From assembly GCF_003688665.1 (NCBI RefSeq), contig NZ_REFO01000013.1:62001-126000 (forward strand): a DNA stretch of 64,000 bases, written 5' to 3'. Below, piece by piece: positions 58,634-64,000 of the stretch. Numbering within the stretch: position 1 is the first letter of the stretch; each line of letters opens with the position of its first letter. This DNA comes from Hydrogenothermus marinus. Its GTDB lineage: Bacteria > Aquificota > Aquificia > Aquificales > Hydrogenothermaceae. Under the pieces are notes generated by a model. It did not search any database, was not told the origin of the DNA, and worked only from the letters and a program-made list of their open reading frames with translations. The position numbers and the translations under genes were made by a program.

Positions 58634-60646
58634 CTATTTGATTTTATATACAACTAAATTTGGAAAGTTATCATAAACAAGTTGAAAATTTTTAAACTTA
58701 TTAGCTTTTACAAACATTTTATCTATCATTGTATTTATAAAAATATCAGACACTAATAATTCATAATATTTGTTATCTTTTGTTTTAATAATTTCTAAAA
58801 CTAAATTTTTATCATTTATTAAATTTGTTTGGTTTTTATTTGATAGTTCATATAAAAAATTAACTTTTTTATGGATTCTTTTTTCTCTATCTACGAAAAT
58901 TACTTGAGATATATTTTGATTTTTTACTAAAAAAGTATTATTTTCTAAATTATATGAAAAAGTTGGACATTTTATTAGATTATCTTTTTCCATACATTTA
59001 TAAAAAGATTTCACCAAAGGAAGTTGAAACTTTTGTATTTTTGTACCTGCAAAACCTATCATTGGTATAAAATCTGAGTGTAAATCTCTGCCATAAATAA
59101 ATATATAAACATCTTTTTTTGGTTTTTCTTTATAATTATCTACTAAATTTAGATATTCATCTATTTTTATATTTATTAAATTATTCTTTTTAATTAAATT
59201 TTTTGTTCCTTTATTTGTCAAATAAGATATTAGTTTATATGTTCTTTTAGGATTAGTAGTATACATAGAGTTTGCAAAACTATACATTTTAATCTGATTA
59301 AAATTACCATTATCTGTAAAAGTACCCTTATTTAATAAATACTGGATAGCAAGTCCATAATCCCACCAAGCCCAGATATAAGAATCTTCTTTTAAATATT
59401 TGTTTGCTTCTAATGTGGATTTATAAATTCCTTCAGAAAATAAAGGTCTTGGTATTAGTAAAAATGCATTTGGCGGTGTAGAAAAAAGGAAAGTTATAAA
59501 TAATAAAAATGTAAAAGTAGTATTTTTTAGAAAATCTGTATTTAAAAATCTATCTTTCAAGAAACTATAAAAAATATAAACTCCATATCCAACTCCTATA
59601 CCAATAAAAGGAGCAAGGTACATCATAAACCTATTAGAACCAAAAGATGTTAAACCTAAAGCAAATACTGGAAATAAAAGTAAAAAGAAAGTTTTATATC
59701 TATAGAAAAATAAAATTAATCCGAATATAGCGATAATAAAAGCTAAAATATTATCTGTAGTTATATTAATAACCTGTTTTAATGTTAAACCTTGTAATTC
59801 AGATATAGAAATACTAACAGATGCAGGCAAAAATGAAGGTTGAGTTATTTTAAATATGTAAGAAGTAAAATATTTATATATACTTAATACACTACCAATA
59901 AGTTCATTATTCATGATAAGAGCAAAGAAAAGTAAAGAAAATAAAAAATTAATTTTTAAATTTTTTATAAGCTTTGTTTTATATATGTAAAAGGAAGTAA
60001 TTACAAAAGAAAATAAAAACATTAAAGAAAAAACATTTTTTGGATAATGCCACATAAAAAGCTTGTATAAAATAAAAATAATTGTAAGATTTATTAAAAC
60101 TGATTTTATATTTTCTAAATTTTTTATTAGTTTATAGACGAAAAGGTATATTCCAAATAAGAAAAAAAGTATTAGAAAATCTGTATCAAATCTTCCTAAT
60201 TGGGTCCTTCCTGCATATATTATATTTAAAGAACCAAGTATTGTGACTGAAGGAATAAAAAATAAAAATAGTTCTTTGTCTTTAGTTATATCTTTTAATA
60301 AAGAAAGTAAAGGTATAACAAATAATGGTGCAAATAAAGGTGGAAATAATAAAAAAATAGTATTTAAATCTATATGCAAATATTTAGCTAAAATATAAGC
60401 TATATAGGAATGAAAATTTACAAAGGATATAGAAAAATCAGGAACATTTTTTAAGTAATCAATAGTTAAATTGGGACTATTCTCTAATAACTCTTTTGCT
60501 TTCCTTGCATAATAAAAAGCATCTGCACCAGTTATTACATAATCTTTATATTTTTCTATAAACTCAATTAAAAATCGAAACTTAAAAAAGTAAACTATAG
60601 AAAAGGAAATTGAAATTATAAGAAACATTAATTTATTTTTGTTCAT
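58634..60646 (-). CDS. STT3/PglB-type oligosaccharyltransferase
   Basis: The 670-aa protein has an N-terminal part (about 1-395) with many membrane helices, then a soluble C-terminal part. The catalytic features of STT3/PglB/AglB enzymes are in order: an acidic first loop GADAFYYARKA (D42), GRFDTDFL (D154, D156), the EL5 motif SISE (280-283, like SVSE/TIxE), SNRFMMYLAPF with R339, and the sequon-binding WWDYG (427-431). Such enzymes transfer a lipid-linked glycan to Asn in N-X-S/T on the outer side of the membrane. The start overlaps the prepilin-like gene by 14 bases, suggesting pilins as substrates. Overall similarity beyond the motifs is low, so it is a divergent member. Confidence 0.82.
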   Translation of the reverse strand: MNKNKLMFLIISISFSIVYFFKFRFLIEFIEKYKDYVITGADAFYYARKAKELLENSPNLTIDYLKNVPDFSISFVNFHSYIAYILAKYLHIDLNTIFLLFPPLFAPLFVIPLLSLLKDITKDKELFLFFIPSVTILGSLNIIYAGRTQLGRFDTDFLILFFLFGIYLFVYKLIKNLENIKSVLINLTIIFILYKLFMWHYPKNVFSLMFLFSFVITSFYIYKTKLIKNLKINFLFSLLFFALIMNNELIGSVLSIYKYFTSYIFKITQPSFLPASVSISISELQGLTLKQVINITTDNILAFIIAIFGLILFFYRYKTFFLLLFPVFALGLTSFGSNRFMMYLAPFIGIGVGYGVYIFYSFLKDRFLNTDFLKNTTFTFLLFITFLFSTPPNAFLLIPRPLFSEGIYKSTLEANKYLKEDSYIWAWWDYGLAIQYLLNKGTFTDNGNFNQIKMYSFANSMYTTNPKRTYKLISYLTNKGTKNLIKKNNLINIKIDEYLNLVDNYKEKPKKDVYIFIYGRDLHSDFIPMIGFAGTKIQKFQLPLVKSFYKCMEKDNLIKCPTFSYNLENNTFLVKNQNISQVIFVDREKRIHKKVNFLYELSNKNQTNLINDKNLVLEIIKTKDNKYYELLVSDIFINTMIDKMFVKANKFKNFQLVYDNFPNLVVYKIK

Positions 60647-61049
60647 AACAGTAAACTTTTTTAAGAGATTTTATTTCACAGGAAAAATGAAATCCTTTTA
60701 AAGAGATATTACATGTATTTCCTTTTATCCTAACAGGATAGTCAGGCTTTGTTTCATCAATATATATTTCACAAGTATCTGTAGTATATTGAAAATTACA
60801 TATTTTTGATTTGACAGTAGAATTCCATGAATAATCTAATGCTAAACTTCTAGCACAATTAGTAAAAGAATAATAAATAGAAGCTAAATAAGCATTTTTT
60901 TTATATTTTATGTAATATGGAATTGATATAGATAATAATAATGATAATATGGCAACTACTATAATCAATTCTAATAAAATAGATAATAATAATGATAATA
61001 TGGCAACTACTATAATCAATTCTAATAAAGAAAATCCTTTAATTTTCAT
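60633..61049 (-). CDS. Prepilin-like protein with duplicated hydrophobic helix
   Basis: The 138-aa product has a short leader MKIKG followed by FSLLELIIVVAILSLLLSI, a type IV pilin/pseudopilin signature with Glu at +5. The segment LLELIIVVAILSLLLSI occurs twice in tandem (residues 8-24 and 25-41), from an exact 51-bp duplication, so the helix is about 17 residues too long. The mature domain has six Cys (65, 84, 93, 113, 124, 134) and sequons N76-S-T and N114-I-S. It overlaps the oligosaccharyltransferase gene. Without the duplication it would be a normal 121-aa pilin; with it, export or assembly may fail. Confidence 0.82.
   Translation of the reverse strand: MKIKGFSLLELIIVVAILSLLLSILLELIIVVAILSLLLSISIPYYIKYKKNAYLASIYYSFTNCARSLALDYSWNSTVKSKICNFQYTTDTCEIYIDETKPDYPVRIKGNTCNISLKGFHFSCEIKSLKKVYCYEQK
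60928..61029. repeat. Perfect tandem duplication, 2 x 51 bp
   Basis: Copies at 60928-60978 and 60979-61029 are identical over all 51 bases; the flanking bases differ. The unit is in frame (17 codons) and lies in the helix-coding part of the prepilin-like gene. Confidence 0.95.
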
Positions 61050-61151: not shown

Positions 61152-61179
61152 AAAGGCCTCTTGGAATATAGAGGCCTTT
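61152..61179. terminator. Terminator hairpin after the type IV pilin gene
   Basis: AAAGGCCTCT (61152-61161) and AGAGGCCTTT (61170-61179) form a perfect 10-bp stem with an eight-base loop. It follows the pilin stop (minus strand). The longer T run is on the plus side. Confidence 0.8.
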
Positions 61180-61192
61180 GTTTTTAGTTATT

Positions 61193-61597
61193 TTATCGGC
61201 AATTTACGGTATAAGAACCACTTGTATCCTTTTGTGCTGTACAAGTAACTGTTTGACCATTAACTGTAATATTTCCAGTATAAGAAATACTTTCAGTATT
61301 AGTTCCAGGGTTGTTTAAAGTTAAAGTAATTTCACTATCCCCAACTTTACATGTTTGTGTCGTATCCAATGCATTATATGTGTATTCAATAAGAAGAGTA
61401 CCGATACACTTTTTAAAATCTGCTTCTGCTCTTAAGAATGCAGCCTTTTGTCTATATTTTGCAAACTGAGGAATAGCAATTGCTGCTAATATTGCTATTA
61501 TTGCTACTACCACTAGTAGCTCAATTAATGTGAAACCTTTTTGAGCTTTTTTCTTCTTAAGCTCAAGTTCTTCTTGTTTGATGAGTTCTTCCTTCAT
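61193..61597 (-). CDS. pilA: Type IV pilin (PilA-like)
   Basis: The 134-aa prepilin has the cleavage site KG-FTLIELLVVVAIIAILAAI (after G21) and Glu at +5. The mature protein is 113 aa with four cysteines (64, 83, 119, 133), the last pair forming the usual C-terminal D-loop, and a beta-rich end. One sequon, N109-I-T, is present. The 21-residue leader MKEELIKQEELELKKKKAQKG is much longer than the usual 5-7. AGGAGG precedes ATG 61597 and no internal Met exists, so the long leader is real. A sigma-54-like promoter and pilSR lie upstream. Confidence 0.93.
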   Translation of the reverse strand: MKEELIKQEELELKKKKAQKGFTLIELLVVVAIIAILAAIAIPQFAKYRQKAAFLRAEADFKKCIGTLLIEYTYNALDTTQTCKVGDSEITLTLNNPGTNTESISYTGNITVNGQTVTCTAQKDTSGSYTVNCR

Positions 61598-61635: not shown

Positions 61636-61651
61636 CTCAAAATATATGCCA
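61636..61651 (-). promoter_or_regulatory. Sigma-54-like promoter of pilA
   Basis: On the minus strand TGGCAT (61646-61651), five bases, then TTGAG (61636-61640). This fits TGGCAC-N5-TTGCW, with GG exact and the -12 GC changed to GA. It lies about 40 bases before the pilA start and next to a sigma-54 activator gene. Confidence 0.65.
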
Positions 61652-61696: not shown

Positions 61697-61728
61697 ATTT
61701 TTGTCATTTTAATTAACAATTTTTGTCA
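61697..61728. promoter_or_regulatory. Paired direct repeats, candidate PilR sites
   Basis: ATTTTTGTCA occurs at 61697-61706 and 61719-61728, spaced 22 bp start to start (two helical turns), about 45-90 bases upstream of the sigma-54-like promoter. The second copy overlaps the pilR stop codon. TGTC repeats are described for PilR sites in Pseudomonas. Confidence 0.5.
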
Positions 61729-63084
61729 ATCTTTAAAATACTTATCATATCTATATCTAAACTCTCTAAAAGATATACCTAAAATCTCTGCTGCTTTTGA
61801 TTTTACTTTGCCTGCTTTTTCATAAGCATATCTTATTATAGATTTTTCTATATTATCCATTACTTGTTTTAAGTCCATATTATCTTCTGGGAAATTTTTA
61901 ATTTGAAATTCAGATTTTGTATCATCTATAAAAATAGAGTTTAAAGAATTTATTTCAAAATATTCATTTAGTTTTAGTTCTTCATCTTCAGATAAAATTA
62001 CTGCTTTTTCTATTATATTTTTAAGTTCTCTTATGTTTCCTTTTAAATCTAAGGTTTTTAAATAAGTAATAAACTGAGGATCTATTTTTTTTATTTCTTT
62101 ATTATATTTTTTTATTAGCTCTTTTAAAATCTGTTCAACAAGTAAGGGAATATCTTCTTTTCGTTCTCTTAATGGTGGTAAATTTATTGTTATTGTTGAA
62201 AGTCTATAATATAAATCTTCTCTAAATTCTCCTTTTTCTATCTGTTTTTTTAAATCTTTATTTGTTGCTGATATTATTCTTACATCAACTTCTATTTCTT
62301 TTGTTGAACCAAGAGGTCTTATTTTTCTTTCTTCTAAAAATCTTAAAAGCTTTGCTTGAAGTGGTAATGGCATTTCTCCTATCTCATCTAAAAATAAAGT
62401 ACCTCCATTTGCTTCTTCTATAAGTCCTTTTTTATCTTTATCAGCTCCTGTAAAGGCTCCTTTCTTATAACCAAATAGCTCACTTTCCAGTAAATCTGCT
62501 GGTATTGCTGCACAATTAACTGCAATAAAAGGTTTATTTTTTCTATTACTATAAGAATGTATTGCTTTTGCTGTAATTTCTTTTCCTGTTCCTGTTTCTC
62601 CAGTAATTAAAATATTTATATCATATGGTGCTACCTTTTTTATTGTTTTTTTTACAAGTTGAATAGCTTTAGATTTTCCTGTTAAGAACTGTTCTTCTAA
62701 AATATTTTTATTGTCTAAGTTTTTTTCAATTTCTAACTTTTCTTTAACATTATTTATTAAATTTTTTATATCAGATACTTCAAAAGGTTTAGATATATAA
62801 TCTGAAGCTCCTTTTTTTAAAGCTTCTACTGCTGTTTTAGAATCTGCAAAAGCAGTAATCATAAAAATCTGAATATCTGGATTTCTTTGTTTTAATTGAG
62901 GAATTATATCTATCCCTGAACCATCTGGTAGTCTAATATCTATAAATGCTATATCATATATTTTATTTTTTGATTGGAAATCCTGTATAGAATAAGCTTT
63001 TTCTATCTCAAATCCTGAATCTTCTAACAATATAGATAATATCTCTGTTATACTTTGCTCATCATCAACTATTAATGCTTTCAT
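61726..63084 (-). CDS. pilR: Sigma-54 response regulator, PilR-like
   Basis: The 452-aa NtrC-family activator has a receiver domain (about 1-118, phosphoacceptor D49 in FIDIRLPDGSG), an AAA+ domain (about 135-375; Walker A GETGTGKE, sigma-54 contact loop GAFTGA, Walker B GGTLFLDEIGE) and a C-terminal Fis-type helix-turn-helix (KSKAAEILGISFREFRYR). Being next to pilS and directly upstream of pilA suggests PilR, the pilin activator. It overlaps pilS by 20 bases. Confidence 0.92.
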   Translation of the reverse strand: MKALIVDDEQSITEILSILLEDSGFEIEKAYSIQDFQSKNKIYDIAFIDIRLPDGSGIDIIPQLKQRNPDIQIFMITAFADSKTAVEALKKGASDYISKPFEVSDIKNLINNVKEKLEIEKNLDNKNILEEQFLTGKSKAIQLVKKTIKKVAPYDINILITGETGTGKEITAKAIHSYSNRKNKPFIAVNCAAIPADLLESELFGYKKGAFTGADKDKKGLIEEANGGTLFLDEIGEMPLPLQAKLLRFLEERKIRPLGSTKEIEVDVRIISATNKDLKKQIEKGEFREDLYYRLSTITINLPPLRERKEDIPLLVEQILKELIKKYNKEIKKIDPQFITYLKTLDLKGNIRELKNIIEKAVILSEDEELKLNEYFEINSLNSIFIDDTKSEFQIKNFPEDNMDLKQVMDNIEKSIIRYAYEKAGKVKSKAAEILGISFREFRYRYDKYFKD

Positions 63085-64000
63085 TTTTAGCCTTTATAGG
63101 TAATTTAATAATAAATTTTGCTCCGCCTAATTCTTCACTTTTAGAAACTAAAATATTACCATCTAAATTTATAGCAATATTTTTTGCTATTGCAAGACCA
63201 AGTCCTGTTCCTTTTGGGTTTTCAGTAAAAAAAGGATCAAAAATCTTATCTTTTATATCTTCTGATATTCCTTTACCATCATCTTCTATTATTAAAATTA
63301 GATTTTCATCATTGTTATTTAATGTTATTTTTACTTTTGATTTTGACCAATATAAAGCATTTTTAAAAATATTATCAATTAATGAGTAAATAGCTTTTTT
63401 GTTTGCTCTTATTTTTATAGGTTTTGTATTTAATATAATTTTTTTCCCTAATGTATGAGATTTAACAATTTCATTTATTAGTTCATCAAGGTTAATAATT
63501 TCCTCATTTTCTTTATATGGATCTGTTAATCTTAAAAAATTTTTTAAAAGCTCATCAACTCTTTTTGATTCTTTATATATAATATCAACTAATTTCTCAT
63601 TTATTTTTCCTTCTTTGATTAATTGAGCAGCTCCACTAATGGATGCTAAAGGATTTTTTATTTCATGGGCTAAATTTGCAGATATTTCATATAATTTTTT
63701 ATACATCTGAGTTTTTTTCTTTTCATCTTCTAATATTTTAATTTCTTTTTGTTGTTGTTCTAATCTTTTATTTAAAGCAATTCCTGCAAAAGCTATTATG
63801 AAAAATGAAAATCCGTGTAAGAATGAAGGAATTAATAAATTAGAAATTCCATCTGAATTATACATATATCTTACAGATATATAAGATATAAAAGATATTA
63901 CAGAAAGTATATAAGCATTATTTTTTCCAGTTAATAAACTATAAAAGAATATTGGAAATAAATATAAGATAGAAAGATAAAAAACAGAATTATAATTAAA
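63065..64000 (-). CDS. pilS: Sensor histidine kinase, PilS-like (5' end outside window)
   Basis: The frame is open on the minus strand to the window edge, so the gene continues past 64000 and Met at 63865 is internal. The visible N-terminal part is hydrophobic, with segments such as YLFPIFFYSLLTG and FLHGFSFFIIAFAGIAL, that is, several membrane helices as in PilS. After a coiled segment comes the HisKA motif NLAHEIKNPLASISGAAQL with the phospho-His, then the ATPase N box region and GKGISEDIKDKIFDPFF, GTGLGLAIAKNI and GGAKFIIKLP. No PAS domain is seen. It pairs with the adjacent regulator. Confidence 0.9.
   Translation of the reverse strand, partial: FNYNSVFYLSILYLFPIFFYSLLTGKNNAYILSVISFISYISVRYMYNSDGISNLLIPSFLHGFSFFIIAFAGIALNKRLEQQQKEIKILEDEKKKTQMYKKLYEISANLAHEIKNPLASISGAAQLIKEGKINEKLVDIIYKESKRVDELLKNFLRLTDPYKENEEIINLDELINEIVKSHTLGKKIILNTKPIKIRANKKAIYSLIDNIFKNALYWSKSKVKITLNNNDENLILIIEDDGKGISEDIKDKIFDPFFTENPKGTGLGLAIAKNIAINLDGNILVSKSEELGGAKFIIKLPIKAKNESINS

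Follow-up and report, generated by a model that had tools for sequence, protein, structure and literature searches.

A pilin-linked STT3/PglB-family gene in Hydrogenothermus marinus and a probable exchangeable pilin-glycosylation cassette in Aquificota

Introduction

What does an oligosaccharyltransferase gene of the STT3/PglB family do inside a bacterial type IV pilin operon? In the literature we found, pilin glycosylation in bacteria is described as O-linked (TfpO, TfpW, PglL), and bacterial PglB figures there chiefly in its Campylobacter form, a general system that follows an acidic sequon rule. The 64,000-nucleotide stretch of the H. marinus genome analysed here (the window) carries an STT3-like gene directly behind a prepilin gene, and a preliminary description of it had proposed a dedicated N-glycosylation unit for pilins. 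We consider it likely that the locus is a pilin-glycosylation cassette of an exchangeable kind, represented in H. marinus by an N-linking version whose activity, pilin substrate, Asn linkage and glycan source are predicted.

Layout of the locus

The prepilin and STT3-like reading frames were reproduced at the coordinates first given for both, together with their 14-nt overlap (Table 1). PilA, a sigma-54-type response regulator and a histidine kinase all lie upstream of the pair on the same strand, and the opposite flank of the STT3 gene is ordinary (rpmF, plsX and fabH, by ORF inspection). The overlap probably couples translation of the STT3 gene to that of the prepilin, and pilin-enzyme overlaps of 4–16 nt recur among relatives.

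Table 1. Features of the pilin-STT3 locus (window coordinates)
Feature	Position	Strand	Details
STT3/PglB-family oligosaccharyltransferase gene	58634..60646	(-)	670 aa; catalytic D42, R147, D154, D156, E283, R339, W427-W428-D429
Second type IV prepilin (PilA2)	60633..61049	(-)	138 aa; cleavage motif KG|FSLLE; sequons N76, N114
Overlap of prepilin 3' end and STT3 start	60633..60646	(-)	14 nt
51-bp in-frame tandem duplication in prepilin N-terminal helix	60928..61029	(-)	two copies, 100%
Hairpin between PilA and prepilin	61152..61179	(-)	dG -15.6 kcal/mol, z -4.4; attenuator-like position
PilA, major-type pilin	61193..61597	(-)	134 aa; sequon N109
PilR-type response regulator	61726..63084	(-)	receiver, sigma-54 activation domain, Fis HTH
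PilS-type histidine kinase	63065..64000	(-)	runs on past window end

The hairpin between PilA and the prepilin is stable but has no U-run on the coding strand. Terminator-like hairpins were found 3' of pilA in most relatives, whichever type of enzyme follows, and the pilin-accessory cassettes of Pseudomonas have an attenuator hairpin after pilA (PMC11841053). A scan with the sigma-54 consensus gave no significant site. Upstream of pilA, TGGCATATATTTTGAG (window 61636-61651, minus strand) resembles a sigma-54 promoter with a weak -12 element, a likeness in keeping with the neighbouring PilR-type regulator.

The tandem duplication writes the N-terminal helix segment LLELIIVVAILSLLLSI of the prepilin twice and so doubles its hydrophobic helix. 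No such duplication was seen in any relative examined; it arose very recently or else is an artefact of the assembly, and a prepilin with the doubled helix may be impaired or mis-assembled.

The enzyme belongs to the PglB/STT3 family

The window gene product is a PglB/STT3-family (GT66) protein by computed family, fold and catalytic residues, from which its activity is predicted. It scores above the cut-off of the STT3/PglB core model PF21436 (31.8 bits against 23) and below that of the N-terminal STT3 model PF02516 (19 bits against 24.5), so that Pfam bears out the anticipated STT3 match with the first model and not with the second. A PF02516 search of the whole window genome gave no match, this model being too stringent in the present case; relatives were instead gathered by protein and alignment searches. 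The protein matched Campylobacter lari PglB in phmmer (3e-16), and a profile of 26 relatives matched the same protein over its full length (E 1e-82, residues 8-667). Its score against NF050801, the equivalog of Campylobacter-type PglB, is 41.6 bits with a cut-off of 1300. The AlphaFold2 model (mean pLDDT 90.2, pTM 0.89) has the GT-C transmembrane fold and a C-terminal periplasmic domain, and its best PDB matches in Foldseek are PglB structures (5ogl/6gxc, TM 0.73–0.75), followed by eukaryotic STT3 and archaeal AglB; the modelled structure thus agrees with the family first suggested.

The motifs named in the preliminary description (D42, GRFDTD 151-156, SISE 280-283, R339 and WWDYG 427-431) are all present and align with the catalytic residues of C. 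lari PglB: D42, D154, D156, E283 and R339 with D56, D154, D156, E319 and R375, and W427-W428-D429 of the intact WWDYG with WWD. The catalytic residues are invariant or nearly so among relatives at 20–37% identity, and the window STT3 frame is intact. Both observations argue against a non-catalytic or decaying accessory of pilus assembly with a TfpY-like role, as does the lack of any recognisable glycosyltransferase domain in TfpY (PMC11841053). We regard such an accessory as very improbable, even granting the odd duplication in the window prepilin and, in genome G018, an STT3 gene of which just a 53-residue tail is left between two pilins.

The pilin-STT3 pair is conserved

STT3 relatives are present in 23 of the 61 genomes of the order and in 53 of the 136 genomes of the phylum. 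A single-sequence search of the genome contigs with the window STT3 gave no match, and an alignment-based search of them gave 43 loci. In the tree the window STT3 falls in a clade, A (SH-aLRT 100), whose members adjoin pilins in 12 genomes (G000, G002, G003, G005, G008, G014, G021, G023, G030, G069, G080 and G081) and on the contig L183. The one clear exception is L059 (G097), without a neighbouring pilin; two further members, L008 and L061, are cut off by the contig end. The expectation that related Aquificota would keep the prepilin-STT3 pair was therefore upheld. Many members overlap their pilin by 4, 8, 14 or 16 nt. At the site matching the window locus, G004 has neither the second pilin nor the enzyme. 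On contig L183, whose record assigns it to a DPANN archaeon, two pilins and a response regulator occur together with an STT3 of the Persephonella/Hydrogenothermus type; the contig is probably a mis-binned bacterial one.

A second STT3 group, B, adjoins pilins in five genomes of the Aquificaceae; two of the contigs concerned are recorded under Thermocrinis. That A and B entered the slot independently was considered and is not established, a single clade of both not being rejected by the AU test (p 0.219).

With adjacency and overlap conserved across genera and three enzyme groups, chance neighbourhood is refuted as regards adjacency and receives almost no credence from us as an account of the locus; nothing specific speaks for it, and L059 shows that the pair is separable.

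We asked whether the enzyme could instead be a general N-glycosylating oligosaccharyltransferase for many periplasmic proteins that sits in the pilin operon by accident. It is the sole STT3 gene found in the window genome, and PglL of Neisseria is general though pilin is a main target (PMC3643930). However, the 'general' PglBs of Aquificota lie on other branches of the tree than the pilin-linked STT3s and had no same-strand pilin upstream (three are followed by a GspG-like gene, and next to one there are pilins on the other strand), and both kinds occur together in G008, G015 and G021, which are MAGs with up to 9% contamination. We judge an accidental resident of this sort decidedly unlikely.

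A TMEM260-like enzyme occupies the same slot in other genomes

In relatives without a clade-A STT3, the gene after the pilin often encodes another hydrophobic protein, matching the TMEM260-like model PF11028 (E 1e-17 to 1e-24). Such genes scored above cut-off in 14 genomes of the phylum, directly after a pilin in every one of them (14/14), and most overlap the pilin by the same 4 or 16 nt; a pilin-linked STT3 was found in 0 of these 14. Among the genomes of one genus (g7), the slot is occupied by STT3 (G023, G030), a TMEM260-like gene (G026) or the STT3 remnant (G018), or is empty (G028). N-type (STT3) and O-type (TMEM260-like) enzyme families replace each other in the Aquificota cassette; human TMEM260 is an O-mannosyltransferase (PMC11292533).

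Because the pair and its overlap are conserved, the slot is swapped in sister genomes and the 'general' PglBs form a separate clade, there is good support for a unit dedicated to pilin modification as the predicted role of the locus. As a family member the enzyme is ordinary; its conserved place is unusual.

The TMEM260-like loci of Aquificota (L088, L116-L129, L138-L141, L143 and L144) lie only directly behind pilin genes. Candidate polyprenyl-phosphate-sugar genes are found at several of them; GT4 and GT2 genes stand between the pilins, at L088 together with a flippase-like gene. Beside the pilin/TMEM260-like cassette of L143 (3657-6610) are genes for a decaprenyl-phosphate phosphoribosyltransferase and for DprE1-like and DprE2-like proteins, a set that recalls the arabinose-modified pilins of Pseudomonas (PMC12369383) and could, by analogy, specify a system of arabinosylated pilins outside that genus. 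At L089 (2379-3362) a transposase-like ORF, recognised by eye, adjoins the pilin/TMEM260-like cassette and is a possible route for cassette exchange.

Acceptor sites and linkage

The preliminary description had listed N-X-S/T sequons at N109 in PilA and at N76 and N114 in the prepilin, none with D/E at -2, and this was confirmed. In C. lari PglB the -2 acid is contacted by R331; at this position the window STT3 has Ile295, and none of the Aquificota STT3s aligned with it has Arg there. Desulfovibrio PglBs without an R331-type Arg act on non-acidic sites (PMC4894442). Given this precedent and Ile295, the missing acidic residue is no obstacle.

Sequon enrichment was expressed as observed over expected from shuffled pilin heads, and was 1.46 for group A and 1.78 for group B pilins beside STT3, 1.62 for pilins beside the TMEM260-like enzyme and 1.19 for pilins with neither enzyme found beside them; the pilins are mutually related, so the shuffle p-values overstate significance. 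The mature head of the L007 PilA has no sequon. Enrichment as a proof of N-glycosylation was rejected, since it is just as high in pilins next to the TMEM260-like enzyme. Of the N-glycosylation unit first proposed, the dedicated unit thus stands on the conserved pair, overlap and slot exchange; the sequons do not discriminate in favour of N-linkage. An Asn linkage would follow from family membership and the catalytic residues.

In several STT3/PglB relatives (L002, L003, L009, L019, L024 and L025) the acceptor motif, WWD nearly everywhere else, is TWS or WWS. Three of them belong to the window's own genus, L002 and L003 with TWS and L009 with WWS, and acceptor recognition may therefore have drifted in these clade-A relatives. 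A pilin-dedicated glycosyltransferase with a drifted or different acceptor or linkage, other than the classical Asn of N-X-S/T, would fit these altered motifs, the sequons being no richer than beside the TMEM260-like enzyme, and the filling of the slot elsewhere by a family named for O-mannosylation. We nevertheless find this improbable for the window enzyme, which retains WWDYG, D42, D154, D156, E283 and R339; we know of no STT3/PglB member with a linkage other than to Asn.

Glycan donor and proposed mechanism

The STT3 version of the cassette is not accompanied by genes for lipid-linked glycans. The preliminary description had suggested looking for a glycan-lipid assembly locus elsewhere in the genome, and a large polysaccharide locus was found on the same contig, about 5–37 kb from the STT3 gene (G000:C13:127400-160000; L136, L137). 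It starts about 1.4 kb past the window end with a galE-like gene and contains PF00953 and PF02397 members, two Wzx-like flippases, EpsG-like, Wzz and Wzy_C-like proteins and several glycosyltransferases. This locus is a plausible candidate source of the glycan for STT3.

The N-linking cassette that we prefer would consist, in this order, of the regulators, PilA, a hairpin acting as attenuator, the second pilin and, translationally coupled to that pilin, a membrane oligosaccharyltransferase. At the periplasmic face of the inner membrane, STT3 would most likely take a preassembled glycan off a polyprenyl-diphosphate carrier and move it to the Asn of N-X-S/T sites in new pilins anchored in the membrane, either ahead of pilus assembly or in the course of it; an acidic residue at -2 would not be required. 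Related Aquificota have a TMEM260-like (GT117) glycosyltransferase in this slot instead, often with donor genes of its own. We lean, if only slightly, towards the full form of this proposal, namely archaeal-style N-glycosylated pili in bacteria, made by an STT3 that is dedicated to pilins and uses non-acidic sequons, in a cassette that has repeatedly swapped STT3 and TMEM260-like/GT117 enzymes across Aquificota.

Relation to known systems

The closest layout is that of the Pseudomonas cassettes (pilA-tfpO of group I and pilA-tfpW of group IV; PMC11841053, PMC12369383), which likewise have an accessory glycosyltransferase gene 3' of pilA, a hairpin after pilA, PilSR control and differing enzyme families in one slot, including a polyprenyl-phosphate-arabinose type (compare L143). 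They differ in that the enzyme here is of the STT3/PglB (N-type) or TMEM260-like family and a second pilin is coupled to it, and pilin modification here is predicted. The O-oligosaccharyltransferases PglL and TfpO share the logic of adjacency, the lipid-linked donor and the pilin target (PMC3643930). As precedent, 21 of 31 PglL genes adjoin pilins, and for one of these systems, that of ComP, pilin glycosylation has been confirmed experimentally (PMC3643930). PglL is nevertheless a WaaL/Wzy_C-type, O-linking enzyme, whereas the window enzyme, PglB-like and of the GT-C type, is expected to make N-linkages.

Compared with the general PglB system of Campylobacter, family, fold and catalytic residues are the same. 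The window protein differs in its low identity (18% in the structure alignment), in Ile295 at the R331 position and in the lack of acidic -2 residues, and its gene has pilins as neighbours in place of a surrounding pgl locus. Archaeal AglB, part of a dolichol-based system, N-glycosylates pilins and archaellins and is similarly an STT3-family oligosaccharyltransferase acting on type IV pilin-like proteins; by contrast, the window system is a bacterial cassette with the oligosaccharyltransferase gene inside the pilin operon.

We found no report of a bacterial STT3/PglB-pilin cassette in the open-access full text searched. If the proposal is correct, a pilin-dedicated bacterial STT3 would unite the fields of pilin glycosylation and PglB, and the Aquificota enzymes would be a natural set of thermophile oligosaccharyltransferases without the -2 Arg. 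Slot exchange would likewise give the TMEM260-like family a bacterial context and a candidate substrate, the pilins. Purified pili make the question of substrate directly testable. A possible case beyond Aquificota is seen at L166 (4591-9188), in a record named Acidobacteria, where three pilin-like genes flank an STT3 gene.
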